Source of the DNA: Gammaproteobacteria bacterium
GTDB lineage: Bacteria; Pseudomonadota; Gammaproteobacteria; Pseudomonadales; Azotimanducaceae
Length of the DNA stretch: 50,029 bases
Assembly (NCBI GenBank): GCA_002684495.1
Contig: NYVG01000008.1
Coordinates: forward strand, 32,299 to 82,327
Direction of reading: 5' to 3'
Below are positions 7,985-41,019 of the stretch, one piece after another (position 1 is the first letter of the stretch; each line of letters starts with the position of its first letter). The notes beneath the pieces are model-generated. The model saw nothing but the letters and a program-made list of their open reading frames with translations, had not been told where the DNA came from and searched no databases. The translations under genes and the position numbers were made by a program.

Positions 7985-9238
7985 ATGAGCAAAACCCTAA
8001 TTACCGTAACAACCCTGTTGATTTGCTCATTAGGTTGGGCCGATCAAAACCCTGACCTATTAGCCAAAGCTGCGGCCTTGCATGAACGTATTCTGACCAT
8101 AGACGCCCATGCAGATATTGAGATTCCTGGACAACCATCCAGTTATGTTGGCCCTGATGGCCTGTCAAAAGTTGCCCCAGACAAAATGCGCGCCGGCGGC
8201 CTCGACGCTGTGGTGATGTCAGCAGCGGTAGGACCCAAGCCACGCACGGCTGCAGGCTATGCCGAGGCCCGCGCCATTGCCGAAAGCGAGCTCAACGCCA
8301 TGGTCGATTTAGCGGCCGAATCAGCCAATCAGGTCACGTTGGCGACTACCACCAAAGCGCTGCTCGAGGCACATCAGGCGGGCCAGCGTGGGGTTATTCT
8401 CGGTCTGCAAAACGCACTAATCCTTGGTACCAAAGTGAGTGCTGTCGACGACTTCTTCGCAGCAGGCGTGCGGGTTTTTGCCCTGACTCACATGGGCCAT
8501 AACGCATTTGCGGATTCATCTCGGCCCTTATTCAACGCGGCACTTGGGACCCGCGAGCCAGACGCCGAACACGGTGGTCTGTCAGATCTCGGGCGCGCTG
8601 CAATCCAAAGAATTAACGCCCTCGGCGGCATTGTCGACATTTCGCAACTGTCCAAACAGGCGGCTTTGCAGGCTATGACAACCTCCACAACACCGGTTAT
8701 TGCCAGCCACTCCAACGCATGGGCGTTGACCAACGTCAGTCGAAACTTATCTGATGAGGAACTTGATGCCATCGCAGCGACGGGCGGGGTGGTGCATGTT
8801 GCCCCCTTCGCTGGCTATCTCTTCGATTCATCAGATCCAGAGTTAGACGCAGCAATCCGGGCTGTGCGGCGCAAAGCGGGCATTGACGAGAACTACCTAT
8901 ATCCTTTCGAACTGTATTGGGAAATCAACGACCCAGCAATTAAGACCGAGTTTCTAACCGCAGTACGCCGCTTGCTGGGACCTATTAACTTAGACACCAT
9001 GCTCAACCATCTGGACTATGTGGCTGAACGCATCGGGGTTGATCACGTCGGCATCGGCACAGACTTTAACCACGGCAGCGGCATCGACGGCTATCAGGAT
9101 GCAAGCGACGCGCTAAACGTTACCCTAGGCCTGATCCAACGGGGCTACAGCGCTACCGATATCGAAAAAATTTGGGGCGGTAATTTTATCCGCGTTTGGC
9201 AGCAGGTTGAGAACGCCCGGGACACTAAAGACATTTAA
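7985..9238 (+). CDS. exported membrane-dipeptidase (peptidase M19) homologue
   Basis: Renal-dipeptidase-like TIM-barrel protein of 417 residues with a signal peptide (1-19, cleavage after WA). The first metal pair is present as His42 and Asp44 in DAHAD, and the ASHSNAWAL motif gives the His equivalent to human His219. Two other canonical ligands look altered: the bridging Glu (human Glu125) is Gln141 in LGLQNALILG, and the His198 position reads DISQLS. The late GIGTDFNHGSG motif is intact. Family members hydrolyse dipeptides or act as amidohydrolases on other substrates. The sulfatase gene follows after 24 bases, so both probably act in the periplasm from one transcript. Peptidase activity is uncertain given the ligand changes. 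Confidence 0.82.
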   Translation: MSKTLITVTTLLICSLGWADQNPDLLAKAAALHERILTIDAHADIEIPGQPSSYVGPDGLSKVAPDKMRAGGLDAVVMSAAVGPKPRTAAGYAEARAIAESELNAMVDLAAESANQVTLATTTKALLEAHQAGQRGVILGLQNALILGTKVSAVDDFFAAGVRVFALTHMGHNAFADSSRPLFNAALGTREPDAEHGGLSDLGRAAIQRINALGGIVDISQLSKQAALQAMTTSTTPVIASHSNAWALTNVSRNLSDEELDAIAATGGVVHVAPFAGYLFDSSDPELDAAIRAVRRKAGIDENYLYPFELYWEINDPAIKTEFLTAVRRLLGPINLDTMLNHLDYVAERIGVDHVGIGTDFNHGSGIDGYQDASDALNVTLGLIQRGYSATDIEKIWGGNFIRVWQQVENARDTKDI

Positions 9239-9262
9239 TTCCGAGCATCAAGGATAATTCAT

Positions 9263-11065
9263 ATGCGAACCACCATTGTCTGGTTATTCAGCTGCTTTGT
9301 TATGGCAGTCAGCACGCCGTCGCTCAGTGCAGCACCAGAACAAGACACGGTAACGGAGACGCAGCCGCCGAATATCGTATTGCTGTTGGCTGATGATCTG
9401 GGGTTTAGCGACTTGGCGAGCTACGGCAGCGAGATCAGTACACCCACCTTGGATATATTGGCATCCCAAGGGGTTCGCTTCAGCAACTTCCATGTCGCCG
9501 CTAACTGCGCGCCCACTCGGGCCATGCTGATGACTGGGGTCAACAATCATCGCGCTGGCGTGGGCAATATCATCGAAATGATTCCCGATAAATTTCGCGG
9601 ATCGCCCTCATACCAAGGAACGTTAAGCACCAATACGGTTACCGTCGCAACATTACTCCGCGACGCCGGCTATCACACCTATATGGCCGGCAAATGGCAC
9701 CTAGGCCAAAGCCCGGAACTGCTGCCCAGTGCTCGGGGATACGAACGCACCGTAGCGCTAGCAGACTCCGGCGCAGACAACTGGGAACAAAAGCCCTATA
9801 TGCCAATTTACGACCAGGCTAACTGGTTCGCCGACGGCGAGCGTTTTGACTTACCCGAAGATTTCTACTCATCGCGATTCTTAATCGACAAGATTATTGA
9901 GTTTGTCGACAGTAATGCCGAGTCCGACGCACCGTTTTTTGCCTATGTGCCCTTTCAAGCGGTGCATATTCCGGTACAAGCACCCCAGGCGTTTATTGAT
10001 CGCTATGAGGACACTTATAAAGATGGCTGGGAAGTGCTGCGCGCTCGGCGTTACCAAGCCGCTAAAACCCTAGGTCTGGTGCCTGAAAATAGCACTGTGG
10101 AGCCCATGGCCAGCACCCAATCTTGGCAAAACCTTGAGCCAGAGACCAAACGCTACCAAGCCAAACGCATGGCGGTCTACGCCGCCATGGTAGAGGCCAT
10201 GGACTTTCACATTGGCAGGTTAATCCAACACCTAAAAGACACCGATCGTTATGACAATACTATTTTCATTTTTGCATCGGACAATGGCAGCGAAGGCGCC
10301 GGCATAAATATCGAGAGCAACTTGGTCAACGACCTTATGCTCAGCCTCATTGATTATAACGACGACTATGAAACCTTGGGGTTAAAAGGCAGCTTTAACA
10401 CCATCGGCCCGAACTTTGCGAGCGCTGCTGCATCGCCCTTGAGCTTTTATAAATTCTACGTCGGCGAGGGCGGTTTGCGAGTCCCTCTTATAATCGCTGG
10501 TGAGCCGCTGAACCTATCTGACCCCAACAGCATTATCGATGCTTTTAGTTACGCTACCGACATCGTTCCGACAATATTGCAGATGACTGGCGTGCCTCAG
10601 CCAAACGGGCGCTACAACGGTAGAGAAGTGGAACCCATCGTTGGGCGCAGCGTGGTGCCGTTATTAGAGGGTCAGACCCAGCGTATCTACGGCGACGATG
10701 ACGCCATAGGCTATGAACTGAACGGCCACCGAGCGCTGTTTTTGGGTGATCATAAGATTGTGTATAACCGCCCACCCATCGGCGACGGCGTATGGCATCT
10801 CTATAACATCGCCACCGATCCTGGCGAAACTCAGGATCTCAGGGACCAACAGCCCCAGCGCTTCGCGCACATGCAAGCACTATACGAACAATTCGTTGTG
10901 GAACATGGCGTGCTGCCCGTGGCAGAGGATTTCGATCCGCAGCAAGTGATGGTATCGCGAATGATGCGCGACCGCTTTGGCGGCTATCTGATCGCCTTGG
11001 TTTGCGTCGTGGTGGCGCTTGTGGCCTTTGGTTTTTATCGCAGACGACGCCTTAGAACGCACTAA
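9263..11065 (+). CDS. exported, membrane-anchored type I sulfatase
   Basis: Formylglycine-dependent sulfatase of 600 residues. A signal peptide (1-23) is followed by the metal-binding ADDLGFSD (Asp44, Asp45) and the signature CAPTR at 82-86, whose Cys82 is converted to formylglycine by FGE or anSME. AGKWHLGQ and FIFASDNGSEGAG complete the active site. The C-terminus has a single hydrophobic segment (about 572-590) followed by RRRR, so the catalytic domain is probably held on the periplasmic face of the inner membrane. The gene is 24 bases behind the M19 gene. Sulfated algal or animal polymers, or sulfate esters as a sulfur source, are the usual substrates; no carbohydrate-utilisation cluster surrounds it, so the substrate is open. 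No maturation enzyme is encoded in this window. Confidence 0.9.
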   Translation: MRTTIVWLFSCFVMAVSTPSLSAAPEQDTVTETQPPNIVLLLADDLGFSDLASYGSEISTPTLDILASQGVRFSNFHVAANCAPTRAMLMTGVNNHRAGVGNIIEMIPDKFRGSPSYQGTLSTNTVTVATLLRDAGYHTYMAGKWHLGQSPELLPSARGYERTVALADSGADNWEQKPYMPIYDQANWFADGERFDLPEDFYSSRFLIDKIIEFVDSNAESDAPFFAYVPFQAVHIPVQAPQAFIDRYEDTYKDGWEVLRARRYQAAKTLGLVPENSTVEPMASTQSWQNLEPETKRYQAKRMAVYAAMVEAMDFHIGRLIQHLKDTDRYDNTIFIFASDNGSEGAGINIESNLVNDLMLSLIDYNDDYETLGLKGSFNTIGPNFASAAASPLSFYKFYVGEGGLRVPLIIAGEPLNLSDPNSIIDAFSYATDIVPTILQMTGVPQPNGRYNGREVEPIVGRSVVPLLEGQTQRIYGDDDAIGYELNGHRALFLGDHKIVYNRPPIGDGVWHLYNIATDPGETQDLRDQQPQRFAHMQALYEQFVVEHGVLPVAEDFDPQQVMVSRMMRDRFGGYLIALVCVVVALVAFGFYRRRRLRTH

Positions 11066-11095
11066 GCTAAATAGTACCCAAGCAACTCGGCAAGA

Positions 11096-12133
11096 TTAGT
11101 CGATACGAATTTCTGTGCTATCGGAAGGCAACCAGAAACGCATGCCGTCGAGGGTCATGACCACGTCGGTTTCAATGTCCCGAGTAAAAATCTTTTCCAT
11201 TAACGTGTTACGCGTCGGCGGCACCAGATGATAGAGCGCCACCTGCCGAATGTTCGCGCGTTTTGCCATACCATCAAGATTGCGGGTGTCCACGTGATAG
11301 TCGAGCACATCACGCAGCACTTGGGCTTGCTTGTCGGCGCCTGCCGCCGCCGCGGCCTTTGCTAAAGTATGAATGAGCTTGTGCGACAGGGCATCTGTCA
11401 GCAACAAGTCTACATTGGTGGCCGCTTGTTCAAGCCCCTTGGTCACAATAGTGTCGCCGCTCACCACCACGGAACGGCCCATATAATCGAAGCGATAGCC
11501 GAATGCCGGCTTAATGGGCGAATGGTCAACTTCAAATGCGGTAATCGTTAAACCATCCTCATCACGTATCACACCGGGTTGAATCGTACGCGCGGCGATA
11601 ACTCCAAGAGCCGCGGGCATAAGTTCTTCGCCATGATGCAAGGTGCGGTAGCCGCGATCGAGCTCAAACGCCATGTTGTAACCCGCAACCACCTGTTCAA
11701 CACCTTGCGGTCCGATCACCAGCATGGGCTCCGGTCGCCCGGCAATCCAAGACGCAAGGTTCATATCGCCGATGCCGGAAATGTGGTCCGAGTGAAAATG
11801 TGTCAGTAGCAGCCCGCGCATCAATTGGTAGGGTGCGCCATTTGCTTGCATAACGGTGTTCGAGCCAGACCCGGAATCAACCACAAACATCTGATTGCCC
11901 GCGCGCACCATGATACACGCCTGAGCGCGGGTCGGGTCGGGCAACGGCGATGAACTGCCACACACCATGACCTCTAAGCCCTCAAAATCATAGGGTTTAA
12001 GCGTGCTGGCCATCTGCGCCTCGAGCGCCTGCTCCAGCAAAAAGTCTTGGCCCCCGGGTAAATTAGTCAATCCGGCATAAGCGCCTGTGCCTAAGACGAT
12101 GACAGCCGCCAAAGTTATCAGTAATTTTTTCAT
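11096..12133 (-). CDS. exported metallo-beta-lactamase-fold hydrolase (RNase Z/arylsulfatase-like)
   Basis: MBL-fold protein of about 345 residues with an N-terminal hydrophobic signal (KKLLITLAAVIVLGTGAYA). The metal site is clear: HFHSDH near residues 113-118, GDT in VVVSGDTIVT for the bridging Asp, and later a DYHVD segment. The domain order resembles the RNase Z/AtsA branch, but export makes tRNA processing unlikely; a periplasmic esterase, lactonase or phosphodiesterase role is more probable. ATG at 12133 has GAGG seven bases upstream; a GTG one codon earlier is possible. It converges on the sulfatase gene (30-base gap). Confidence 0.78.
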   Translation of the reverse strand: MKKLLITLAAVIVLGTGAYAGLTNLPGGQDFLLEQALEAQMASTLKPYDFEGLEVMVCGSSSPLPDPTRAQACIMVRAGNQMFVVDSGSGSNTVMQANGAPYQLMRGLLLTHFHSDHISGIGDMNLASWIAGRPEPMLVIGPQGVEQVVAGYNMAFELDRGYRTLHHGEELMPAALGVIAARTIQPGVIRDEDGLTITAFEVDHSPIKPAFGYRFDYMGRSVVVSGDTIVTKGLEQAATNVDLLLTDALSHKLIHTLAKAAAAAGADKQAQVLRDVLDYHVDTRNLDGMAKRANIRQVALYHLVPPTRNTLMEKIFTRDIETDVVMTLDGMRFWLPSDSTEIRID

Positions 12134-12221
12134 CACCTTGCCTCTCGCTCATCTTATATTTTTAATGAAATCCATTAACTTTAAGCTGCCCGGCATGTCG
12201 GGGCAAGCACATTCATCGAGG

Positions 12222-13178
12222 CTATTCAGCCACCAGACAGGTTTCTGACAGCAGTACCGGGTTACAGCGAATGCCGCCATCAATGGAAACGCGATAGTCC
12301 GTACCAAAATGCGTCGCTGGGAAGTAATAATCGGTGCTAATGGCTTGGGCGCCGCTGGCAAAGGCTTGCTCGCGTCGTCGAGTGTCGTTTACTCGGGCCT
12401 CCAAAGTATTGGCATCAGCGCGGGTACGCACCAAATACCCTGCCCTGACCAACCTTTGAATACGCGCAAAATCCTTTATCGGATCATTGATGATCATCAC
12501 CCCGGCTGCCGGATGCCCTTCTGGTGCGTTGGTAAACATGGGCCGGCTCTGCCAATTGTTGTAATACCAATCGCGCTTGCTACCGCCCTCATCAAGAATC
12601 AAGAGCAGTTTACCGCGCGCTTGCTCCAACGTCGGCCAATTCAGCCCCTGCACATCTGCAGGCTGGATTAATTGGGTCGCTAATGCTTCGCGTAGTTGTT
12701 CATCGAGTAGGTTCAGTGCCCCGGGGGTGAACGGCTCAGGGTCGGGCAAACCCGTAATCACCTGGTCTTTCAAATTAAAGCTGATCCAAATAGGTGAATG
12801 CCGCGGATTCTTTTCCGACCACGCGCGAACCTCATGCAAACACAGCAACAGTGTGTGGCAGTGACTATTCATATCAATGACTTGGGCGTGCCCTACGGGA
12901 AAAGACCGCTCTTCAGGGTCATAAAACAGGTCGATCTCGAGCTTCCGTAGGCCAAGATCCAACTGCTGCGCCAACGGTACATGCCAGTACTCTAGGCTTT
13001 CCGCAGTTTTAGCATCCAGTAGATGCAAAGCCTTAAAGATCAACGGTGACATGGCCTGTTTATAGCTATTATGGCTACCCACAAATTGAATCTGATTTAT
13101 CTTCAATTGCGTGCTGTCGGCTAATGCGTATTGCGCTGCGCAGAGCAGGCACAAACCCAGCACACTGAGCCTAATCAT
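12222..13178 (-). CDS. exported Ca2+-dependent phosphatidylinositol-specific phospholipase C family protein
   Basis: Phosphodiesterase of 318 residues in the PI-PLC Ca2+-dependent family, which adopts a TIM barrel and cleaves phosphoinositide headgroups or similar phosphodiesters. A signal peptide (1-20) precedes VGSHNSYKQAMSP with catalytic His36, a Glu/Asp metal pair in LEIDLFYD, and GHAQVIDMNSHC with a second histidine. A further core strand reads WISFNLKDQV. The ATG overlaps the ribA stop by four bases (ATGA), so the two are translationally coupled although no biochemical link is known. Together with the glycerophosphodiesterase and patatin genes nearby, it suggests turnover of phospholipid headgroups. 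The substrate is inferred from the family. Confidence 0.82.
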   Translation of the reverse strand: MIRLSVLGLCLLCAAQYALADSTQLKINQIQFVGSHNSYKQAMSPLIFKALHLLDAKTAESLEYWHVPLAQQLDLGLRKLEIDLFYDPEERSFPVGHAQVIDMNSHCHTLLLCLHEVRAWSEKNPRHSPIWISFNLKDQVITGLPDPEPFTPGALNLLDEQLREALATQLIQPADVQGLNWPTLEQARGKLLLILDEGGSKRDWYYNNWQSRPMFTNAPEGHPAAGVMIINDPIKDFARIQRLVRAGYLVRTRADANTLEARVNDTRRREQAFASGAQAISTDYYFPATHFGTDYRVSIDGGIRCNPVLLSETCLVAE

Positions 13179-13984
13179 TCGATGTCTTCATCGCTAAGCT
13201 TATGACCCCAATCGCGCTTGGCATTCAGATACCGTTTATTCCAGTCGCTGACCCCAATAACATGCTTAACCGCTTCGACCCGGGTAAGACCAAGCTCCGC
13301 AAGATCATTTATTTTTTTCGGATTATTAGTAAGCAAGCGGAACCCTGCATCGCCGATAAAGTACTTGAGTATAATTCCTGCATCAGTGAAATCTCGAGAG
13401 TCATCCGGCAAACCCAGCGAGCGGTTGGCCTGATAGGTATCCTCGCCAGCATCTTGCAAAAGATAGGTTGCCGCTTTGGCCCAAAGACCGATACCACGGC
13501 CCTCGTGACCCGCCATATAAACCAGATAACCACCTGCAGAGTCTTCGCTGATGCGCGCAATAGCTGAGCTGAGTTGCGGTCCGCACTCACAACGCTCAGA
13601 GCCAAATACATCACCCGTTAAACAATTTGAATGCACCCGCACCAGCGGATTAGCGTCCGGCTCGCCGACCACTAAAACGCTGTTAACCGCCAACGGCGAT
13701 ACCAGATGGGAAAATAAGTGTTGGCCACCTCGAGCATTTAAATCAGCAGCCAAGGACTCGACCTGTTTGAGTTCAGTACTGCGCACAGCGGCATACCATT
13801 GCACCGTGGTTTTTACCCCTGGCAGGCTCATCGGCAAAGGAATTGGACCCAATAGATTGATCGCCAGTTCACCGGGCGATTCAGGCGTCGCCACATCGAT
13901 CAGCTGGCCCTCGGAATTCACACGCACCAGTTTACCATCAGCTATAAGACGTTTGCGGACATCAGGATTTAGGTAAGTAAACAT
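13175..13984 (-). CDS. ribA: GTP cyclohydrolase II with N-terminal extension
   Basis: Catalyses the first step of riboflavin synthesis, opening GTP to the diaminopyrimidine with loss of formate and pyrophosphate. The zinc site is Cys121, Cys132 and Cys134 in HSNCLTGDVFGSERCECG. The nucleotide loop reads GHEGRGIGL where E. coli has RQEGRGIGL, and LLTNNPKKINDL closes the fold. At 269 residues it is about 70 longer than E. coli RibA because of an N-terminal extension (about 1-75) of unknown function; it lacks a DHBP-synthase domain. It is co-translated with the phospholipase gene. The altered loop and the extension leave room for a specialised paralogue rather than the housekeeping enzyme. Confidence 0.78.
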   Translation of the reverse strand: MFTYLNPDVRKRLIADGKLVRVNSEGQLIDVATPESPGELAINLLGPIPLPMSLPGVKTTVQWYAAVRSTELKQVESLAADLNARGGQHLFSHLVSPLAVNSVLVVGEPDANPLVRVHSNCLTGDVFGSERCECGPQLSSAIARISEDSAGGYLVYMAGHEGRGIGLWAKAATYLLQDAGEDTYQANRSLGLPDDSRDFTDAGIILKYFIGDAGFRLLTNNPKKINDLAELGLTRVEAVKHVIGVSDWNKRYLNAKRDWGHKLSDEDIE

Positions 13985-14090
13985 ATTTTCCGGCGGTTAC
14001 CTTGGCACTGTAGTTTTTCCGCAGCCAACCAGACGTCTGGCTTGCAGCGGGCGCCTATTCTGCATCAAAACCACGGTCAATGACGCGCAA

Positions 14091-30658: not shown

Positions 30659-33268
30659 ATGCTTGAAGCGTACCGAGCTCATGTCAGTGAGCGTGCAGAA
30701 CTTGGAATACCCCCGAAAGCATTGGATCCAGCCTGGACCGCAGACCTAGTAGAACTGCTCAAAGCGCCGCCCGCTGGAGACGAAGAATTTTTGCTCGATC
30801 TCATCGCTAATAGAGTGCCACCTGGAGTCGATGAAGCTGCCTATGTTAAAGCGAGCTTTTTATCCGCCATTGTTAATGGCGAAGCCTCATCACCGCTTAT
30901 CGATCGCGCTGCCGCAGTGGTACTGCTGGGCAATATGCATGGCGGCTACAATGTAGAGACCCTGGTTAAACTGCTGGACGATGCAGAATTAGCCGCGGCG
31001 GCTGCACAGGAACTTAAATCCACTACTTTGGTATTCGACGCCTTCCATGATGTGGCGGCTAAATCCGACGCAGGCAACGACTTCGCAAAATCCGTGCTGC
31101 AATCCTGGGCTGACGCTGAGTGGTTTACCAGTAATGACGCCGTTCCGGAAAGCATCAAAGCGGTGGTCTTTAAAGTTTCTGGCGAAACCAATACCGATGA
31201 TCTATCACCGGCCCAAGATGCATGGTCACGACCGGATATACCATTGCACGCACGTGCTATGTACAAGATGACTCGCGACGGCTTGGAGCCAGAGGAGCAC
31301 GGCAGCATCGGCCCAATGGCGCAGATCGAAGCCATGCGTAATCACGACCTGCCTGTGGCCTTCGTTGGCGACGTCGTCGGCACCGGCTCATCGCGTAAAT
31401 CTGCAACCAACTCTGTGCTGTGGTTTTTTGGCGAGGATATTCCCGGCGTGCCGAATAAGCGATCTGGCGGCATATGTATCGGCAACAAAGTAGCACCCAT
31501 TTTCTTCAATACTATGGAAGACGCAGGTGCACTGGTATTTGAGGCACCAGTAGAACAGCTTAACTTCGGCGACGTTATTGAGATACGCCCCTACGAGGGC
31601 AAAATCCTTAACGAAGCGGGTGAGGTGCTGTCGGAGTTCGAACACAAATCCGATGTCATTCTCGACGAGGTTCAGGCCGACGGACGCATTAACCTTATTA
31701 TCGGTCGTGGTCTGACCCAGCGCAGCCGCGAACATTTAGGCCTGCCTGCATCAGAGGTATTCCGCCGTCCCGATACACCCGAAGCATCGGACAAGGGCTA
31801 TACCTTGGCACAAAAGATGGTGGGCAAAGCGTGTGGTCTTGAGGGCGTGCGCCCGGGCACCTACTGCGAGCCTAAAATGACCACCGTAGGCTCCCAAGAC
31901 ACGACCGGACCGATGACTCGCGACGAGTTGAAAGACCTCGCTTGCTTAGGTTTTTCTACAGATCTGGTCATGCAGTCGTTCTGTCATACCGCCGCTTATC
32001 CAAAACCCGTGGACATTGACACACAGCATAACCTGCCCGATTTCATTATGAATCGCGGCGGCGTGTCCTTGCGCCCAGGTGACGGCATCATTCATAGCTG
32101 GCTCAACCGCATGTTGCTCCCAGACACGGTTGGCACTGGTGGGGACTCCCACACGCGCTTTCCAATGGGCATTTCATTCCCCGGCGGATCTGGGCTGGTG
32201 GCATTTGCTGCCGCAACAGGGGTCATGCCATTAGATATGCCAGAGTCCGTATTAGTGCGCTTCAAGGGCGAAATGCAGCCCGGCATCACACTACGAGACC
32301 TGGTGCATGCGATCCCCTACTACGGTATTAAAGAAGGTTTACTGACCGTTGAGAAGAAGAACAAAAAGAACTTCTTCTCTGGTCGCGTGCTCGAAATTGA
32401 AGGCTTAGAGACACTTACCGTCGAGCAGGCCTTTGAATTGTCCGACGCCTCCGCTGAGCGCTCAGCAGCGGGTTGTACCATCAAGCTCGGTGAGGATTCG
32501 GTTGCCGAATACTTACGCTCGAATACCACCCTGCTGCGCTGGATGATTGCCGAGGGGTATGGCGATATGCGTACCTTGGAACGCCGGGTACAGAAAATGG
32601 AAGAGTGGCTGGCCAATCCATCACTTATGAGTGCTGATGCTGACGCCGAATACGCCGCCATCATTGAAATTGATCTGGCCGACATCAATGAGCCCATCGT
32701 CTGTTGCCCTAATGATCCAGACGATGCAAGGCTATTGTCCGAGGTTGCTGGCGACAAGGTCGACGAAATTTTTATCGGTTCGTGCATGACCAATATCGGT
32801 CACTTTCGCGCGGCTGGCAAACTACTGGACGAGGCTGAGGCGGTGAATACGCGCTTTTGGATCTGCCCACCAACACGCATGGACGCTCATACGCTAATGG
32901 AAGAAGGCTACTACAATATATATGGCCGAGTCGGCGCACGCACCGAAATGCCAGGTTGCTCTCTGTGCATGGGCAACCAAGCACGAGTTATTGCGGGCAC
33001 CACCGTACTGTCGACATCCACTCGGAACTTCCCGAATCGTCTCGGCGACGGCTCAAACGTATACCTAACCTCCGCCGAGCTGGCCTCAGTGGGCGGTATT
33101 TTGGGTCGACTGCCTACACCTGCAGAATATATGGAATACGCATCAAAAATTGATTCCATGGCTTCGGAGGTTTATCGCTACATGAATTTCGATCAAATCG
33201 AGTCGTTCCAGAAATCTGCAGAACAAGGCAAATTGATTGCCGCACAGCAGATTGTCGAGGTTGCGTAA
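30659..33268 (+). CDS. acnB: bifunctional aconitate hydratase 2 / 2-methylisocitrate dehydratase
   Basis: TCA-cycle enzyme that isomerises citrate and isocitrate through a [4Fe-4S] cluster; AcnB proteins also act in the methylcitrate cycle and can bind mRNA when the cluster is lost. The 869 residues match E. coli AcnB (865). The order is typical: N-terminal HEAT-like domain (1-160), swivel domain with GDVVGTGSSRKSATNS, then the catalytic domains. Cluster cysteines are Cys709 in GSCMTNIGHF and Cys767 and Cys770 in GCSLCMG. AGGAGG precedes the ATG by nine bases. A hairpin lies in the upstream region and a terminator-like hairpin follows the stop. Confidence 0.97.
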   Translation: MLEAYRAHVSERAELGIPPKALDPAWTADLVELLKAPPAGDEEFLLDLIANRVPPGVDEAAYVKASFLSAIVNGEASSPLIDRAAAVVLLGNMHGGYNVETLVKLLDDAELAAAAAQELKSTTLVFDAFHDVAAKSDAGNDFAKSVLQSWADAEWFTSNDAVPESIKAVVFKVSGETNTDDLSPAQDAWSRPDIPLHARAMYKMTRDGLEPEEHGSIGPMAQIEAMRNHDLPVAFVGDVVGTGSSRKSATNSVLWFFGEDIPGVPNKRSGGICIGNKVAPIFFNTMEDAGALVFEAPVEQLNFGDVIEIRPYEGKILNEAGEVLSEFEHKSDVILDEVQADGRINLIIGRGLTQRSREHLGLPASEVFRRPDTPEASDKGYTLAQKMVGKACGLEGVRPGTYCEPKMTTVGSQDTTGPMTRDELKDLACLGFSTDLVMQSFCHTAAYPKPVDIDTQHNLPDFIMNRGGVSLRPGDGIIHSWLNRMLLPDTVGTGGDSHTRFPMGISFPGGSGLVAFAAATGVMPLDMPESVLVRFKGEMQPGITLRDLVHAIPYYGIKEGLLTVEKKNKKNFFSGRVLEIEGLETLTVEQAFELSDASAERSAAGCTIKLGEDSVAEYLRSNTTLLRWMIAEGYGDMRTLERRVQKMEEWLANPSLMSADADAEYAAIIEIDLADINEPIVCCPNDPDDARLLSEVAGDKVDEIFIGSCMTNIGHFRAAGKLLDEAEAVNTRFWICPPTRMDAHTLMEEGYYNIYGRVGARTEMPGCSLCMGNQARVIAGTTVLSTSTRNFPNRLGDGSNVYLTSAELASVGGILGRLPTPAEYMEYASKIDSMASEVYRYMNFDQIESFQKSAEQGKLIAAQQIVEVA

Positions 33269-33323: not shown

Positions 33324-33986
33324 TCACAAATGATCCAGCAGTTCCCAAGCTGTATTCAATTGCACTCGAGGTACGGTCAACGCAGACGAGTCTTGATTGC
33401 TGCCTGCATCCGGAATGTGAAACACTTTAAGGCCTGCCTGGGCAGCCGCCATCACTCCAATATGTGAGTCCTCGACTGCCCAACTGGCATTGGCAACCAC
33501 GTTCAACTTGCGCAACGCTAAAAGGTAAGGATCAGGCGCAGGTTTCGTTTTCCCGGCCTCGTCAGCACAGACAAACAGCTGAAAGAAATCGCGCAAACCC
33601 GCCTCCAGCAGGTGCTGTTCACATATGTCGCGGCGGTTCGAGGTCGCCACTGCCATAGGAATCGAAAGCTCTGCGAGACGCTCCAACACTGGGACCACAC
33701 CAGGCTTTACGGCGACCGGATCTACCCGGGTGTGCTGATCGAAGCATAGGCTCCATCGTTGGTGCAGGGCTTCATGGTCGTATTGTTCACCGTAGGCTGC
33801 GGTCAAAATTGCCTTAGTCTCAGCATGACTGGTGCCGATACAGCGGTCGTAGACTCGATCTTGATATTCAAATCCCAAGTCAGTAATCGCACGAGCAAAG
33901 GCAATTCGAGCCGGGGTCTCTGTATCCAATAGAGTACCGTCCATGTCGAACACTACGGCCTTTGGCAAGTTAGCCGGCGTGTTCAC
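33324..33986 (-). CDS. HAD-superfamily hydrolase (phosphoglycolate phosphatase / beta-phosphoglucomutase-like)
   Basis: Phosphatase of 220 residues, subfamily IA. Motif I is VFDMDGTLLDTE with nucleophile Asp14 and acid Asp16; motif II is VATSNRR; motif III is the Lys in GKTKPAPDPYL; motif IV is AVEDSHIGVMAA. A helical cap domain lies between motifs I and II, as in phosphosugar phosphatases and phosphonatases. The ATG overlaps the stop of the potassium-channel gene by four bases, so the two are co-translated. The substrate, probably a small phosphosugar, is unknown, and the link to the channel is not obvious. Confidence 0.86.
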   Translation of the reverse strand: MNTPANLPKAVVFDMDGTLLDTETPARIAFARAITDLGFEYQDRVYDRCIGTSHAETKAILTAAYGEQYDHEALHQRWSLCFDQHTRVDPVAVKPGVVPVLERLAELSIPMAVATSNRRDICEQHLLEAGLRDFFQLFVCADEAGKTKPAPDPYLLALRKLNVVANASWAVEDSHIGVMAAAQAGLKVFHIPDAGSNQDSSALTVPRVQLNTAWELLDHL

Positions 33987-34852
33987 GAACTTTGATCATC
34001 CGCATGAGCCCCAGAGCGACCCCGCTGATATAACGCCTCGCCACAGCGCCAACAAAAGCTCGCCTCTCGAGAATGACCCTCAGCCGCGCATTCAGGACAA
34101 ACGCGCGTATTGGCCTGGCGTCGATTAGCCTCATTCAACTCAAGGGTCACTATGCCGGTGGGTACCGCAATAATACCGTAGCCCATTATCATTATGAGCG
34201 CCGCAATGGACTGGCCAAGGGGGGTAATGGGCGCGATGTCACCATAGCCGACAGTAGTCATGGTCGTTACCGCCCAGTAAATACTGTGGGGGATGCTGGC
34301 AAATTCAGGGTTGTGGCCACCCTCCACCAGATACATCAGCGAGCCAAACACAACCATCAGAGCCATAACAGAACAAATGAATACGGTGATTTTGCGGCGA
34401 CTTGCAGCCAGGGCTTGAGTAATCAATTCAGCCTCGCCCACATAGCGCACCATGCGTAATACACGGAATACTCTGAGCACCCGCAACACACGTACCACTA
34501 GAAAGTACTGAGAGCCGTCAATCCAGAGGCTCAGCAACATCGGCAAGATACCCATGAGATCGACAATGCCGTAAAAACTTCCGGCATAGGCCCATCTGTT
34601 TTGTATCGACCAGAGCCGCAACCCATATTCGATAGCAAAGACCAAAGTAAACGCCCACTCCGCGAGGTAAAGCCAATCCCCGAAACGGGCATGAATCTCA
34701 GGCACTGAGTCAAGCATCACTAAGATTACGCTGGCGAGGATGAAAACAATTAAGCCAACATCAAATGCCTTGCCTGCCTTGGTTCCAGCCTCAAAAATGA
34801 TAATTCGGACATCATCTCTAAATGTCCGCAATTCTTTCTGCTCCGCGCTCAA
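33983..34852 (-). CDS. voltage-sensor-type potassium channel with C-terminal zinc ribbon
   Basis: Six-helix cation channel subunit of 289 residues. S1-S3 span about 30-110; S4 is LVVRVLRVLRVFRVLRMVRY (118-137) with arginine at every third position, the voltage sensor; S5 is about 155-177; the selectivity filter is TTVGYGD at 199-205, a potassium signature; S6 is about 215-237. The cytoplasmic tail carries Cys252, Cys255, Cys267 and Cys270 (CPEC and CWRC), a zinc ribbon in place of a usual RCK or cyclic-nucleotide domain. The start is TTG at 34852, with GGAG eight bases before it; no better start is visible. It is divergent from the TonB-kinase-channel group and is followed by an overlapping HAD gene. 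Confidence 0.88.
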   Translation of the reverse strand: MSAEQKELRTFRDDVRIIIFEAGTKAGKAFDVGLIVFILASVILVMLDSVPEIHARFGDWLYLAEWAFTLVFAIEYGLRLWSIQNRWAYAGSFYGIVDLMGILPMLLSLWIDGSQYFLVVRVLRVLRVFRVLRMVRYVGEAELITQALAASRRKITVFICSVMALMVVFGSLMYLVEGGHNPEFASIPHSIYWAVTTMTTVGYGDIAPITPLGQSIAALIMIMGYGIIAVPTGIVTLELNEANRRQANTRVCPECAAEGHSREASFCWRCGEALYQRGRSGAHADDQSS

Positions 34853-35114: not shown

Positions 35115-35522
35115 ATGATTAGCCAACTTTCAGTTAACGTTTTCAACCCACGCTTGGCGATGGTCACTGTTCTTGGCGGATTGATCGTCGCGTTACTTTT
35201 GGTATCACCGAACGCTTTGGCCGAGAAAGGCTACGTGGGAGACGAAGTAGTGGATATCCAGCGTATTTCAGAGGGCAGATTTCGCTATCCGCGCTCGGCT
35301 GCGCGCCGCGAGATCGAGGGAGAGGTCAAAATTGAATTTACCGTGGGGGTGACTGGCGAAGTCGTAGACGCCTTCGTTCTAGAAGCGACTCCCCCTAACC
35401 GTTTTGAAAAAAACGCGCTGAAGTATGTTCGCTCGTGGATCTATGAGCCATTGCGAGTAAATGGCGTACCGACTGAGGTGCAGCGCATCGAAACAAAGGT
35501 TGTATACCGGCTTCAGAGATAG
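35115..35522 (+). CDS. TonB C-terminal-domain protein with N-terminal membrane anchor
   Basis: A 135-residue protein. A hydrophobic segment (about 14-36, ending NALA) acts as a signal peptide or inner-membrane anchor. The rest is a TonB C-terminal domain: YPRSAARREIEGEVKIEFTV followed by GEVVDAFVLEATPPNRFEKNAL and SWIYEPLRVNG. The proline-rich spacer of true TonB is missing, so it is unlikely to span the periplasm and energise outer-membrane receptors; such short forms are more likely periplasmic adaptors. ATG at 35115 is favoured over 35067 because GAAAGAAAA precedes it. It is the first gene of a run with the hybrid kinase 69 bases downstream. Confidence 0.78.
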   Translation: MISQLSVNVFNPRLAMVTVLGGLIVALLLVSPNALAEKGYVGDEVVDIQRISEGRFRYPRSAARREIEGEVKIEFTVGVTGEVVDAFVLEATPPNRFEKNALKYVRSWIYEPLRVNGVPTEVQRIETKVVYRLQR

Positions 35523-35591
35523 CTTCGCGGCTACAGGACTTAGCCGTTCAGAACATCCAGAAGAGGTTTTTATTAGGAGTCGCAAACGCTC

Positions 35592-38500
35592 GTGCTAATT
35601 AGATATCAAATTCTGGCTGCGGTTACCCTATCTTGCATTGCCATCGCCGTCGTAATGGGAATCGGGCTGCGACAGCAGATCGAACTACAGGAAGAAACGC
35701 TTTCTACTACCAGCACGACCTTATTTGATGCGTCTTGGTCAAACACAAATGAAAGCAGTTTCATCACCTATCTCGAGAAATGGAATCCAGACGGCTTTTC
35801 TAATGATTATATTGAGCGCTTTGGTCCCCGTGCCGATCTGAGCGAATTCGACGAGTCTGAAATCGGCGTTCTTAACAAAGCTATCGCCGAGCGCGACAAC
35901 GACTCTGTAGACGACCTAGTGAGCTATATCCTCGAATCTGATTTCGACGAGGGCTATCTGAGTTTTAGTATCGTCTACGCACTCGATGGCGAGCGCTTAT
36001 TTTGTGGCTCGGCTTTCGATTACGGTGTCGACCCGTGCAGTAGCACCGCGGAAATCGACTTCCAATCGCCACTAGATACGTTCTTGCAGCGAACTGTGCG
36101 TTCCAAACGCCAGATCGTCTTTGTTGACGACGTCAGCAATGAAGAGGCTCCAACCATAAATCAAGCCATCGTCTTTCCAGTAAAAAACGCTGACCGCAAA
36201 ATCATCGGCGTAGTTGTGATCGCAAGGAACATGTTTTCAAACATCGAATTGTATGAAGAGCTATATGAAGTGCGAGCGGCAATTATCACACCAGACTACG
36301 ACTTGTCGCTTGAGGCCTACGATACAGTTGAGGAGGGCGTTTTTGGCATAAACAACATCGACGCTTTGATCGCGGCTGCTAAGACCGAACTCCAGAGCCA
36401 AGCCAGTCGCTCGATCTTCACTGAAAACTTAACTGAGCTAGGAGCGTCAGTTACCGTGCTGTCCCTCAGCGACTACTTGCCGGGTGGGCGCGCTAACCTC
36501 GTTGTATTCCAAGATCAGAAAGAGCAATTCGATGCCTTAGCGGCATCTAATTTATTGGTCTACTCAATTGTTTTCGCTCTGATTGTGTTCATCACTGTGG
36601 GCGTGATTTACATCACCGCCAAAGCTTTCGCCGGCATCACCTCGGCAATCGGTGTACTGCAGTCCCTGACGAACGACGAGCTTGATGCACAAATGCCTGT
36701 GCGAAAAGGCTTACTGGCCTCAGATACGGATGAGGTAGGGCAGCTTGCAGGATCTCTGGAGAGCTATCGCGCGACGTTGCTCGAGAATCATGCCAACGCG
36801 GAAGAGCGATACCAACGTCGCCGTCAGCGAGACCAAATTATTCTCGAAAAGATGAGCAATCTCGCCGAGCAGCTCGACGGTGAAGCTAAAGATCTCATGG
36901 TTGGTGATATAGCTCGAATGAAGGAGTTATCTGAACAAGAATCAGAGAATGACCGCGAAGATTCTTCTATCGAGATGATGTCCCTGGCGTTTACTCGAAT
37001 GTCAGACGAGGTAAATCAGCTAATCAAGGCCAAGACTGAGGACATGGAGGCCGCTAGAGATGAGGCCATCAGCGCAAATGCCAATCGCGCTCAGTTCTTC
37101 AACAACATGAGCCACGAACTGCGTACACCACTAAACGCCGTATTGGGTTATTCCGAGATGTTGCAGGAAGAATGTGAGGACATGGGTTATGACGACCTGC
37201 TGCCCGACATCGAGCGCATCAATACATCAGGACGACATCTGCTTGCCCTTATCAATGACGTTTTGGATCTATCCAAGATCGAAGCCGGTAAGATGGAAGT
37301 ATTCCCCACCAACTTCGATATCGAAAATGTGGTGGAAATGCTGACCGCGATCAATACACCATTATCAGAGAAAACCGGCAATGCTTTTGTGATCGAACAG
37401 GATGAGATCTCGGGCACTATGTATTCTGACGAAACTAAGTTGCGTCAAATCCTTACTAATTTTTTGAGCAACGGATTTAAAAACACCGAGAAAGGTACTG
37501 TTACTCTGCGGATCACCCCCGAAACCGATAGCGATGGCAGCAATCGTGAAATGATTCGCTTCTCGGTGATTGATACCGGTACCGGTATACCACCGGAAGC
37601 GCTAGAAACTCTGTTCGACGAATTCACCCAAGTTCAAACGTCGACAATGCAGAAGGCTGCTCAGGTTCAAGCAAGTACCGGCCTGGGATTGGCCGTTACG
37701 AAAAAGCTCGCAGAAATGATGGGGGGAACTGTCGCCGTAACCAGCGAGATGGGCGTCGGGTCGGATTTCTCACTGATATTGCCTCGCAACATCGGTGGCG
37801 ATGACGAAGACCTCGAGGCCATTGAAGATCTGCAAACGGTGGATTCAGAAAAGCCGTATGTGGTTCTGATTGATGACGACCCGTCGATTCACGAAGTAGT
37901 TAAACGCACCCTCAACAAGGCCAATATAAACCTGATTGGCACCACCGATGGCGAGCGCGGGCTGCAAATTATTCGCGACAAAAAACCTGGCTTGATTCTG
38001 CTCGATGTCTACATGTCCGGGCGCGATGGCTGGTCGATCCTACGCGAGATTAAAACTGACGAAACCATCAAAGATGTACCGGTGGCTATGGTCACCCAAT
38101 TGTCTGAGGAAAAATTCGCAGAGTCATTGGGTGCCAACGGTTATTTCACTAAGCCCATTGATCGCGCGGTTTTCGTCCAGGAAGTAAACAGGCTGCTCGG
38201 TGCAGAGGCCTCATCGGAATCTAAGGTATTGGTAGTTGATGATGACGAAAATACCAGGGAGTTGCTCAGCCGGATTCTGACCGATGAAGGTTTCAAGGCC
38301 ACTTCAGCAGAGGACGGCATAGCTGGCCTTGAAGTGATTAAGTCGACCTTAGAAGATGAAGATCGACCACGCTTGATCGTCCTAGACATCGAAATGCCGC
38401 GAATGGATGGCCTGCAATTCCTTGACGCCTACGCAGCACAAGTCGACGAGGCACAACATGTGCCTATCGTTATATTTTCCGGTAAGGACATGTCGACGAC

Positions 38501-38612
38501 ACAACAAGAAATCCTCGATCAGTTCGACAACGTCAAAGGCTTTGTGCCTAAGGGCGATATGTCGAACCTCACAAGCTTCATATCTAAATTAAACTTGGAC
38601 CAAACAGCCTAA
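35592..38612 (+). CDS. membrane hybrid histidine kinase with two receiver domains
   Basis: Sensor kinase of 1006 residues. TM1 is about 6-25; a large periplasmic sensor of roughly 290 residues (25-316) with a CACHE-like pattern follows; TM2 is about 320-343; then a HAMP-like linker and an acidic coiled coil up to about 500. The HisKA box is NMSHELRTPLNAVLGYSEML with phosphoacceptor His508. The ATPase domain has DTGTGIPPEAL and STGLGLAVTKKLAEMMGG. Receiver 1 (about 755-870) has Asp805 in LILLDVYMSG and receiver 2 (about 880-1000) has Asp932 in LIVLDIEMPRMDG. There is no Hpt domain. Start is GTG at 35592 with AGGAG upstream. The POLLUX-like channel and a single receiver follow, pointing to a local phosphorelay. 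Confidence 0.92.
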   Translation: MLIRYQILAAVTLSCIAIAVVMGIGLRQQIELQEETLSTTSTTLFDASWSNTNESSFITYLEKWNPDGFSNDYIERFGPRADLSEFDESEIGVLNKAIAERDNDSVDDLVSYILESDFDEGYLSFSIVYALDGERLFCGSAFDYGVDPCSSTAEIDFQSPLDTFLQRTVRSKRQIVFVDDVSNEEAPTINQAIVFPVKNADRKIIGVVVIARNMFSNIELYEELYEVRAAIITPDYDLSLEAYDTVEEGVFGINNIDALIAAAKTELQSQASRSIFTENLTELGASVTVLSLSDYLPGGRANLVVFQDQKEQFDALAASNLLVYSIVFALIVFITVGVIYITAKAFAGITSAIGVLQSLTNDELDAQMPVRKGLLASDTDEVGQLAGSLESYRATLLENHANAEERYQRRRQRDQIILEKMSNLAEQLDGEAKDLMVGDIARMKELSEQESENDREDSSIEMMSLAFTRMSDEVNQLIKAKTEDMEAARDEAISANANRAQFFNNMSHELRTPLNAVLGYSEMLQEECEDMGYDDLLPDIERINTSGRHLLALINDVLDLSKIEAGKMEVFPTNFDIENVVEMLTAINTPLSEKTGNAFVIEQDEISGTMYSDETKLRQILTNFLSNGFKNTEKGTVTLRITPETDSDGSNREMIRFSVIDTGTGIPPEALETLFDEFTQVQTSTMQKAAQVQASTGLGLAVTKKLAEMMGGTVAVTSEMGVGSDFSLILPRNIGGDDEDLEAIEDLQTVDSEKPYVVLIDDDPSIHEVVKRTLNKANINLIGTTDGERGLQIIRDKKPGLILLDVYMSGRDGWSILREIKTDETIKDVPVAMVTQLSEEKFAESLGANGYFTKPIDRAVFVQEVNRLLGAEASSESKVLVVDDDENTRELLSRILTDEGFKATSAEDGIAGLEVIKSTLEDEDRPRLIVLDIEMPRMDGLQFLDAYAAQVDEAQHVPIVIFSGKDMSTTQQEILDQFDNVKGFVPKGDMSNLTSFISKLNLDQTA

Positions 38613-38628
38613 GGTTAGCCCCTAAAAA

Positions 38629-38750
38629 ATGCAGCCATCACGAAGAAAGAGCTTCGACCTTTCTAAATTCCGGGATCAATTCGGGATGCGCCGGCTGCGC
38701 TACCTGTTTGTCGTAAATACGCGCAAAATCCGGTCTTCCCGCTCTTCGTC
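38629..38750 (+). other. probable true 5' end of the POLLUX-like channel gene, out of frame by one base
   Basis: ATG at 38629 opens a frame reading SFDLSKFRDQFGMRRLRYLF, the basic amphipathic N-terminus expected just before the first helix of CASTOR/POLLUX proteins. At about 38710 the protein-like reading passes to the next frame (RKYAQNPVFPLF), which runs without a stop into the channel at 38751. Adding one base within TTTGTCGT would join them as one reading. The frame of this segment itself ends at a TGA at 38764-38766. Confidence 0.6.
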
Positions 38751-40619
38751 ATGTTCGTACTGCTGACCATCTTTACCGCTATTGGGATGAGTGCATATTT
38801 TTTTGGTCTACTGGATCCGGATTCTTTGAAAGCAGAAGGGATTGCCGCTGATTACGATAACGGATTTGTAGACACGTTGTATTGGTCCCTAAAGCATATC
38901 CTCGACCCCGGGGCGTTTTCCGAGGACTACTCAGCATCTGGCGCTATTATCGCGATTGGCTTCATGAATACATTGATGGGCCTGATCATCGTTGGCGGCA
39001 TCATCGGTTTCGTCATTAACTTGATCCAAAGCAGCATGGAAGAACTGCGTCGCGGCGGAACGGCGGTACAGGAATTCAACCATATCGTAATTCTTGGATG
39101 GAACCGAAAAGTCGTCTCCATCCTGCGTTTTTTCGAGGCATTAAAACAACGCCAGCCCATCGTCATCCTCGCCAATACGGACATCGATATGATGTCGGAA
39201 GAAGTACGGCTGGTAGAGCGTAACTTCAAGTATGTACGCGTGATGCCTCAGCATGGCTCGCCCACACTGGCGACCGAATTGGATCGGGTATGCGTACAAG
39301 AGAGTCGCGCCATCATCATGCTCGCGGACGAGGGTGCTGTCGGCAATATCCAATCGAAAGATATACCTACAATCAAAACGCTCATGCAGCTGCAGAATCT
39401 AGAGTGGAGTAATGGTGTACCGAATACCGTCGTTGAAATCACCGATCAAGACAACGTTGATATTGCGGACATCGCGACGAAGTCGTCCGTTCCTGTGGTC
39501 TCCAGCTCCGACTTCGTCAGCAAGACCGTTGTGCAATGCTCCCGCTATTTAGGCTATTCCGCAGTCTACGCAGAGCTATTTTCTTTCGGCAATAACAACA
39601 TTGTTCTACACAGCGTCAAAGGGTACGAAAACAAGTACTTTGGCGAAGTCGCCCAAGCGTTCAAAAATAGCATTCTCCTTGGAGTTAGCTGGGTAGAAGA
39701 GAAAAACGGGGTGGAGCGGCGCACCGCTGTCCTTAACCCTGAACCCGATTACGAACTCTTTGACGATGAAGAGCTGATTATTTTGACCAGCCAAGAGGGC
39801 CCTGAAATAAGTGGCCTTCCAACAGCCCAGATACAGCCTCTTATGGACGTAGCGCCGTATGAGCGCCCCGTTTTCAATCGAGTGCTTATACTCGGTTGGA
39901 ATGCGAGCATTATCGACATACTGCGGGAATTCGACGGTCATGCTGTACAAGAGGTCACCGTAACCATCGTCAGCAGTCATTCAGAGGAATTCGTTGAGCG
40001 CATATTTGGCGGCGATATGGCTAAGGGCTTGAATCAGGTTAAGGTGACCTATAAAAATTCAGACACGGCCAACAGAGGTGTACTTAAGAGCCTAGATATC
40101 CCCAGCTATGACGACGTGATCGTTCTCGCCGACGAATCGAATCCTGCATACGACCCGGACTCTCGCACATCTTTAACCCTGTTAATGATCAGAGAGCTCA
40201 AAGAAGCATTAGACGAAAACGAGGAATTCCCCAGCGTTACCGCAGAATTTTACGACCAAGACACCCGTGCACTATGCATTGACACGCCTCTGACAGATGC
40301 GGTTATAAGTCCGGAGTTTGTGAGCATGCAGCTGACCCAGTTGGCACGGCAGCCAATTCTGGCGTCTATTTACAAGGAGCTCCTCAGTGCCGGGGGAATC
40401 GAAATTGCACTGCGCCCAGTTCATTTATATGTTCCCTTAGAACAAGAAATTTCGTTCAGTGAGCTAATCGTTGCAACCCAACAGGTGAATGAAATCGCTC
40501 TGGGTATTATGATTGGTAGAGGTGGAGACAAATTGACGTTGAACCCGCACAATGACTTGCGATTTCAATTCACAGAAGATGACCAGGTTGCTGTGTTAGC
40601 ACAGCAAGTTTATACCTGA
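38751..40619 (+). CDS. CASTOR/POLLUX-like ion channel subunit
   Basis: Membrane channel related to plant CASTOR/POLLUX and their bacterial relatives. TM1 is about 1-20, a pore-like segment with YWSLKHILDPGAF follows at about 44-58, TM2 is about 64-93 (NTLMGLIIVGGIIGFVINLI), then the diagnostic SSMEELRRGGTAVQEFNHIVILGWN leads into two RCK-like Rossmann domains starting near 110 (IVILGWNRKVVSILRFF) and 380 (VLILGWNASIIDILREF). Ligands such as Ca2+ or nucleotides bind RCK domains and open such channels. ATG at 38751 lies inside the first helix, so this start is probably wrong and the real one is at 38629 behind a frameshift. It is placed between the hybrid kinase and a lone receiver. Confidence 0.85.
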   Translation: MFVLLTIFTAIGMSAYFFGLLDPDSLKAEGIAADYDNGFVDTLYWSLKHILDPGAFSEDYSASGAIIAIGFMNTLMGLIIVGGIIGFVINLIQSSMEELRRGGTAVQEFNHIVILGWNRKVVSILRFFEALKQRQPIVILANTDIDMMSEEVRLVERNFKYVRVMPQHGSPTLATELDRVCVQESRAIIMLADEGAVGNIQSKDIPTIKTLMQLQNLEWSNGVPNTVVEITDQDNVDIADIATKSSVPVVSSSDFVSKTVVQCSRYLGYSAVYAELFSFGNNNIVLHSVKGYENKYFGEVAQAFKNSILLGVSWVEEKNGVERRTAVLNPEPDYELFDDEELIILTSQEGPEISGLPTAQIQPLMDVAPYERPVFNRVLILGWNASIIDILREFDGHAVQEVTVTIVSSHSEEFVERIFGGDMAKGLNQVKVTYKNSDTANRGVLKSLDIPSYDDVIVLADESNPAYDPDSRTSLTLLMIRELKEALDENEEFPSVTAEFYDQDTRALCIDTPLTDAVISPEFVSMQLTQLARQPILASIYKELLSAGGIEIALRPVHLYVPLEQEISFSELIVATQQVNEIALGIMIGRGGDKLTLNPHNDLRFQFTEDDQVAVLAQQVYT

Positions 40620-40653
40620 CTTTAAGGCCTTAATGCAGGAACAAGGGGTGCTC

Positions 40654-41019
40654 ATGACCAAAATTCTCATCGTCGAAGACAACGAAATGAACCGCGACAT
40701 GTTGTCGCGCCGACTGTCCCGAAAGGGTTATGAAATTGAGATCGCGGTAGACGGCGCCGAAGGCTTGGTGATGATGCGAAACAATACACCTGATCTTGTG
40801 CTCATGGACATGGGTTTACCTGTGATGGACGGCTGGGAGGCGACAACCCAAGCCAAGGCTGATCCGGCGATTGCCGGCATTCCAATCATCGCCCTCACTG
40901 CACACGCAATGGAAGAAGATAAACAAAAAGCGCTGGGCGCTGGCGCTGATGATTTCGACACTAAGCCAGTTAACTTGCAGCGATTGCTCGAGAAAATCGA
41001 ACAAAATCTCGCCTCCTGA
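40654..41019 (+). CDS. single-domain response regulator (CheY/DivK-like receiver)
   Basis: A 121-residue stand-alone receiver. The acidic pocket is Glu8-Asp9 in LIVEDNEMNRD, the phosphoacceptor is Asp52 in LVLMDMGLPVMDGWEA, the Thr switch is in IALTAHAME and the Lys in DTKPVN. It has no output domain, so it must act by protein contact or as a relay intermediate. ATG at 40654 is preferred because AAGGGG lies upstream; an ATG seven codons earlier is possible. It starts 34 bases after the channel gene. I infer that it is phosphorylated by the hybrid kinase and may bind the channel or another target. Confidence 0.9.
   Translation: MTKILIVEDNEMNRDMLSRRLSRKGYEIEIAVDGAEGLVMMRNNTPDLVLMDMGLPVMDGWEATTQAKADPAIAGIPIIALTAHAMEEDKQKALGAGADDFDTKPVNLQRLLEKIEQNLAS

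Follow-up and report, generated by a model that had tools for sequence, protein, structure and literature searches.

Most bacterial two-component systems have genes, second messengers or motors as their targets. Known two-component systems of ion transport, KdpD/KdpE among them, signal by way of a DNA-binding regulator, and the single-domain receiver DivK works by protein contact and acts on kinases. In the cited passages on the plant channels CASTOR, POLLUX and DMI1, four transmembrane (TM) segments are predicted and gating is by Ca2+ (PMC6697748); in those on Escherichia coli PtsN, this protein binds the cytoplasmic region of the K+/H+ antiporter YcgO in a manner that depends on its phosphorylation state, thereby controlling it (PMC11808508). 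A search of the open literature found no link of CASTOR/POLLUX or any other ion channel to a lone receiver, and a precedent may still exist. Here we describe a locus in which the genes for a hybrid histidine kinase, a CASTOR/POLLUX-type channel and a lone receiver stand together. It lies in a stretch of 50,029 nucleotides (the window) from a gammaproteobacterium of the family Azotimanducaceae (assembly GCA_002684495.1, contig NYVG01000008.1, positions 32,299 to 82,327). Comparison of gene order in related genomes showed that the three genes form a unit conserved across a group of uncultured bacteria. As a whole, the locus may best be explained as a two-component signaling operon with an ion channel as its output, a reading that we hold tentatively, at a little under even likelihood.

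Open reading frames (ORFs) and Pfam domains placed four genes on the plus strand between 35067 and 41019, coding for a TonB_C protein, the hybrid kinase, the channel and the lone receiver (Table 1). A first-pass annotation of the window had reported four same-strand ORFs, and all were recovered at the positions that it gave. The 1006-residue kinase with two receivers that it described was recognized by Pfam as HisKA, HATPase_c and two Response_reg domains, its channel with two RCK-like domains matched Castor_Poll_mid in two stretches (66.6 bits, for a cut-off of 26.7) plus Slo-like_RCK, and its receiver without an output domain yielded Response_reg alone. It had also described a unit without DNA-binding output; Pfam found none in that of the window, the neighbors of its relatives being only partly annotated. 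The gaps of 69, 138 and 34 bases were correct, and the alternative of 16 bases between kinase and channel belongs to ATG 38629, which is in a different frame; two values had been given because the channel gene changes frame. Conserved adjacency in related genomes had been set as a test beforehand, and the kinase, channel and receiver were indeed kept together, even with the receiver inverted. The kinase-receiver-channel unit, which was the core idea, is thus confirmed as an observation, and the earlier interpretation is, overall, partly supported.

Channel homologs were searched for in genomes of the order (390), the class (369) and the phylum (398), and in those of two further orders (23 and 20). 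Most loci of the window type came from a later family-wide search of 206 genomes and were fetched when the first set had already shown the pattern. Flanking sequences were fetched for 12 of 22 non-window hits in one search and for 8 of 10 in another, so that the loci compared represent part of the channel hits. L and G codes designate the loci and genomes compared. In a quick tree of 58 rows, with long branches and SH-aLRT values as its only support, the 30 channels at least 34% identical to that of the window formed one clade (SH-aLRT 99), which split into the window-type subclade A1 (15 rows, 99) and its sister A2 (15 rows, 100). Left out of the tree and the counts were L224, a 27% identical channel fragment on a 3.6-kb contig with no receiver seen, and L019, a weak hit (E value of 8.6e-4). 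L016, which holds only the start of a channel whose end is in L012, was omitted from the trees, and the channel piece G1245:C149 was not among the loci examined.

The receiver adjoined the channel in all 15 A1 rows (in L222, it adjoins the 3' part of the channel, which is on contig L223). The kinase was present in 14, counting that of L012, which lies on contig L016; the contig of L211 begins within the channel. The receivers of the 14 A1 relatives were 73 to 95% identical to that of the window. Among the more distant CASTOR/POLLUX loci (hereafter unlinked), none of the 27 had the receiver in the stretch examined, the shortest stretch counted being 6 kb and the shortest dropped 3.6 kb. A2 was less uniform, with a receiver in 10 of 15 loci, a kinase or kinase fragment in 7 of 15, and several gene orders. 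The first 15 loci at or above 34% channel identity had shown a receiver nearby in 14; the exception (L094) is a 3.3-kb contig in which the channel adjoins a kinase fragment. Channels of ∼25% identity had no receiver at that stage. The family search added loci with the receiver beside the channel (L210, L211, L212, L215 to L221 and L222/L223), and in L227 a receiver of 98% identity accompanies a channel end of 79 residues. An early version of the finding, in which the receiver accompanied the channel throughout the whole clade at or above 34% identity, was withdrawn, since no receiver was found beside the channels of L213 and L214.

The arrangement of the genes was also conserved. L011, from the UBA6968 metagenome-assembled genome, has TonB_C protein, kinase, channel and receiver in the order of the window, and L016 plus L012, two contigs of one genome, have a window-like order with two TonB_C genes. 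Within A1, kinase and channel are separated by 1 base (L215 to L219), 2 bases (L013 and L210), 18 bases (L011) or 58 bases (L212), or overlap by 8 bases (L220 and L221), which suggests a single transcript; channel and receiver, where co-directional, lie 17 to 55 bases apart. The receiver is inverted, and hence convergent, in L013 and L210, the kinase-channel order being kept in L013, and in L070, L109 and L110 a kinase-receiver pair faces a convergent channel. In L105, L107 and L108, the receiver stands beside the channel, with no match to the hybrid kinase of the window on contigs of 10.6 to 13.4 kb. These contigs end, and in L107 and L108 there is also an unannotated protein of 399 aa next to a further REC protein, of 220 aa. 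In the two further orders, the receiver (E value of 1e-40 or better) was present in each of the 11 genomes that had the channel (E value of 1e-250 or better), compared with 6 of 32 channel-less genomes (Fisher P = 2e-6, uncorrected for relatedness). A scan of genome contigs returned only 2 loci, and a plasmid search gave 8 records, all below 60% identity, in Streptomyces, Deinococcus and Nonomuraea. In the ORF listing of 20 family loci, an overlap filter hid genes (L212, L214, L216, L223, L225 and L226), and 9 of the 20 were relisted unfiltered; the same filter was applied to the receiver-locus set, in which L153, L159 and L160 listed no genes.

Table 1. Features of the kinase-channel-receiver locus (positions in the window)
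Feature	Position	Strand	Remarks
TonB_C-domain protein (151 aa with start 35067, 135 aa with start 35115)	35067 or 35115..35522	+	TonB_C, 59 bits (Pfam); accessory
Hybrid histidine kinase, 1006 aa	35592..38612	+	HisKA (His508), HATPase_c, REC (Asp805), REC (Asp932)
Kinase periplasmic sensor region, no recognized family	35667..36557	+	No Pfam match
Channel gene 5' end, in a frame differing from the remainder	38629..38763	+	N terminus L011-like until the frame change
CASTOR/POLLUX-type channel ORF, 622 aa	38751..40619	+	Two TM-like helices, pore loop, two RCK domains
Pore loop (GFVDTLYWSLKHILDPGAFSEDYSA)	38862..38936	+	Filter Asp is residue 52 of the 622-aa ORF
Lone receiver, 121 aa, DivK-like	40654..41019 (alternative start 40633)	+	Response_reg alone; Asp52 codon 40807-40809

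The channel belongs to the CASTOR/POLLUX family by several lines of comparison. Its tandem RCK domains are homologous to the soluble region of CASTOR, with phmmer aligning it to the crystal structure of the Lotus CASTOR gating ring (6o6j; E value of 1.6e-42) in two pieces, residues 101 to 484 and 482 to 600. A profile of five channel relatives matched the RCK channel MthK weakly (E value of 1.6e-4), and NCBIfam held no name for the window channel. PF06241 matched this gene only (in two stretches) in its own genome, and none of 14 control genomes. Two hydrophobic stretches form the predicted two-TM pore, in which DPG (residues 52 to 54) provides an Asp-x-Gly filter instead of TVGYG and occupies the place of the AD(S/A)G filter of CASTOR. 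In the cited passages on CASTOR, the filter residue D265 is essential, the D265N change having abolished currents (PMC6697748). The filter Asp was kept in all 14 A1 rows covering the position and in every one of the 27 unlinked channels, and was replaced by Arg or Pro in all 15 A2 channels (L069, L070, L094, L097, L105 to L111, L193, L209, L213 and L214).

The window channel holds part of the Ca2+-ligand set of CASTOR (S345, D442, D444, E493, D553 and D554), a set that is a property of the characterized plant members and not a definition of the sequence family. Positions 442 and 444 are D and position 554 is E; 493 is N, 553 is Q, and 345 falls in a gap. The alignment is uncertain at 345, 553 and 554. 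Without correction for relatedness, position 442 was acidic in 6 of 14 A1, 0 of 15 A2 and 22 of 27 unlinked channels, Glu was found at 493 in 5 of 15, 0 of 15 and 16 of 27, and Asp at 553 in 0 of 14, 1 of 15 and 19 of 27, respectively. We read these counts as a probable partial loss of the Ca2+ sites in A1 and a fuller one in A2. Complete loss of the ligand residues in the linked clade, an early reading, was softened after the counts from the 58-row tree.

The kinase shows TM-like stretches at residues 7 to 25 and 321 to 339 and has the makeup of a hybrid two-component kinase, with His508, Asp805 and Asp932 invariant in the four kinases aligned. A profile of its sensor found no significant match in the PDB (best E value of 0.25). 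Sensors differ across the clade at or above 34% identity: no Pfam match was obtained in the window, L013, L210 and L215, SBP_bac_3 was found in L069 and L111, and CHASE in L070 and L110. A search of the window's own genome, a draft in 62 contigs, for a histidine phosphotransfer (HPt) domain (PF01627, E value of 0.001) gave no match, and hence no candidate HPt intermediate for a four-step relay, with 8 of 14 control genomes matching; direct transfer from kinase to receiver is therefore the simplest route. In L106 (positions 11391 to 13985), we also noted a kinase fused to a Na+/sulfate-symporter-like membrane region, with a HATPase domain, two RECs and no HisKA match.

The lone receiver is a single-domain, DivK-like regulator, with a complete acidic pocket, Asp, Thr and Lys and no output domain. 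Its best match in the PDB was DivK (E value of 5.1e-25), and Asp52, numbered from the start at 40654, was invariant in the four copies aligned. It is better conserved than its partners: against G021, receiver identity was 75 to 76%, and that of both the kinase and the channel was 35%.

Receivers of this type are not dedicated to channels. At five loci (L064 to L068), a receiver 55 to 61% identical to that of the window adjoins in every case a protein of ∼510 to 526 aa with a REC domain; four of the five loci also have a histidine kinase. Pfam identified the partner as a REC plus cyclase protein in L064 and L065, the only two tested. A REC-SpoIIE partner was identified by Pfam in L149 and by position and likeness in L150 and L151, and receiver and kinase were also found with no obvious channel or other partner. 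The cassette thus seems modular, with the channel occupying an output slot that is taken elsewhere by REC-cyclases or REC-SpoIIE proteins.

In the mechanism that we propose, the kinase would sense an envelope signal through its periplasmic region, the state of the envelope perhaps being relayed to it by the periplasmic protein encoded upstream (TonB_C here, a beta-lactamase-family protein in other members), and would autophosphorylate on His508. The phosphoryl group would pass directly from His508 to Asp52 of the lone receiver, with the two kinase-internal receivers tuning or draining phosphoryl flow. The phosphorylated receiver would then bind the RCK gating ring and open or close the pore, which in the window type probably conducts a cation. 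The cyclase and SpoIIE enzymes carry a REC, which the channel lacks, and this makes the idea of a receiver that acts in trans attractive. Direct control of ion flux by the kinase system is plausible. The fuller proposal, that the phosphorylated lone receiver gates a CASTOR/POLLUX channel via its RCK ring, partly displacing Ca2+ gating, inside a modular cassette whose partners elsewhere are cyclases or phosphatases, and as a new output class, is one that we regard as possible but appreciably short of even likelihood. If true, a receiver-gated channel would couple envelope sensing to fast membrane ion flux, would give a regulatory context to the bacterial relatives of the plant symbiosis channels CASTOR and POLLUX, and would offer a way to ask how RCK rings shift from ion ligands to protein partners.

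Several observations weigh against receiver gating. The contact between receiver and channel is one that we infer, and the AlphaFold2 models, made from 3 rows for the channel and 2 for the kinase sensor, were too poor to inform it (mean pLDDT confidence scores of 42.6 and 33.5, respectively). A2 proteins lack the filter Asp, the residue at which the D265N change abolished currents in CASTOR, and so may be altered in selectivity or conduction, or may be non-conducting and sensor-like. Position 444 was acidic in 12 of 14 A1, 0 of 15 A2 and 3 of 27 unlinked channels, which opposes a simple loss of the Ca2+ sites. The channel gene of the window itself carries a frame change. Channel-linked receivers were mixed with others in the receiver tree (5 changes), and the dedicated clade that was expected was not found. 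Receivers occurred with no channel found in G004, G1133, G563, G1138, G717, G1142 and G1156, and G1140, G1134 and G1129 have a second receiver copy at a distance from the channel; some of these genomes are incomplete drafts. The cyclase and SpoIIE enzymes carry their own REC, so that in those cassettes the final output may be something other than the lone receiver. Finally, four A2 loci (L193, L209, L213 and L214), falling at two places in A2, had neither receiver nor kinase in the flank examined, which in L213 and L214 extended 5 to 10 kb per side. As a separate observation, the channel is adjoined in L193, L209 and L214 by a gene whose product is a periplasmic solute-binding protein; Pfam assigned SBP_bac_3 in L193 and L214, and in L209 the assignment is by likeness of the sequence start.

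These points bear on three other explanations. The genes might share a promoter and a purpose, such as envelope or osmotic stress, with no contact between their products, the phosphorelay controlling something else and the channel being merely co-expressed. Cassettes that are modular and swap partners, and the four A2 channels without the receiver-kinase pair, agree with this; the adjacency of channel and receiver nevertheless persists where the genes are convergent and no common transcript is possible (L013, L210, L070 and L107 to L110), and we consider mere co-expression unlikely. It is also conceivable, but quite unlikely in our estimate, that the receiver acts on the kinase in the manner of DivK, its nearest solved relative, so that the channel would be an input reporting ion flux or the state of the gating ring and the true output would lie elsewhere in the genome. 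The occurrence of receiver and kinase together without a nearby channel would make theirs the basic partnership, but in L105, L107 and L108 it is the channel that the receiver stays with in the absence of a matching kinase on the contig, which points to receiver and channel as the tighter pair there and favors a link between the two. That the genes are chance neighbors is highly improbable. Receivers and kinases are common, and 3 of the 27 unlinked loci (L077, L081 and L115) also had some kinase in the stretch examined; chance is contradicted by the specific receiver, found in 15 of 15 A1 and 0 of 27 unlinked loci. In L115 (positions 8937 to 12808), a hybrid kinase on the opposite strand adjoins the POLLUX-like channel, possibly as a second independent pairing or by chance.

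The channel gene of the window is interrupted, either by a draft-assembly slip or by a true lesion. Its reading frame shifts between ATG 38629 and ATG 38751: the frame from 38629 encodes an L011-like N terminus as far as "...YLFVVNTRK," and the other frame takes over at ∼38725. Channels of relatives start ∼40 residues farther upstream, and the copy in L011 is intact, with 660 aa.

The TonB_C protein, which the first-pass annotation had counted as a core part anchored in the inner membrane, is peripheral to the module. Of the 11 A1 loci that include the kinase start, only 3 have TonB_C genes ahead of the kinase (the window, L011 and L016, the last with two copies). Beta-lactamase-family genes fill that slot in 7 of the 11; Pfam assigned five proteins encoded in L013, L210, L215 and L218 to PF00144, and the assignment in L219, L220 and L221 is by likeness. 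These proteins have signal-like starts, look periplasmic and are usually two in tandem. In L222, neither a TonB_C nor a beta-lactamase-family gene lies upstream of the kinase. A hydrophobic stretch followed by a small-residue motif is the pattern of a signal peptide. The TonB_C protein has a single such stretch (residues 30 to 48) followed by ALA-E, and related copies show similar small-residue motifs; on account of this start, the protein is probably soluble and periplasmic and not membrane anchored. Nor does it resemble a TonB energy transducer, since TonB_C covers residues 72 to 149 of 151, with no long linker and a signal-peptide-like start.

The terminator hairpins said to end the unit did not stand clearly above chance, with 10 found over the region and a mean of 6.8 (standard deviation, 2.8) in shuffled sequence, and a promoter scan of the region found 1, for 7.0 expected. 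Just upstream, on the minus strand (33983 to 34852), lies a second ion channel, of the voltage-gated K+ type, with an Ion_trans match of 122 bits and a tail that weakly resembles a zinc ribbon; homologs of this channel, a HAD gene and GGT also occur in L210, 3 to 5 kb upstream of the kinase. The aconitase gene acnB (30659 to 33268) adjoins the channel locus or lies within a few kilobases of it in the window, L013, L016 and L210, so that the locus keeps a fixed genomic address.

Compared with known systems, the locus resembles KdpD/KdpE in tying kinase signaling to ion transport and differs in that no DNA-binding regulator was found in the window's unit. With DivK-type regulators it shares the lone receiver, but here the genes alongside encode a hybrid kinase and a channel instead of the cell-cycle kinases. 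The REC-cyclase and REC-SpoIIE cassettes (L064 to L068 and L149 to L151) have a lone receiver 55 to 68% identical to that of the window, mostly beside a histidine kinase, and differ in having as third member an enzyme that itself carries a receiver (by Pfam in L064, L065 and L149). The plant nuclear channels CASTOR, POLLUX and DMI1 share the two-helix pore followed by two RCK domains and the Asp-x-Gly filter motif; the four predicted TM segments and Ca2+ gating set them apart, the cited passages name no kinase partner for them, and the window channel differs at several Ca2+ ligands. PtsN-YcgO, as described in the passages cited above, is alike in that a phosphorylation-dependent partner controls a transporter with a putative RCK domain. 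There, a phosphocarrier of the phosphotransferase system acts on an antiporter through a CorC-like binding domain, whereas the window combines a His-Asp receiver with a CASTOR/POLLUX channel.

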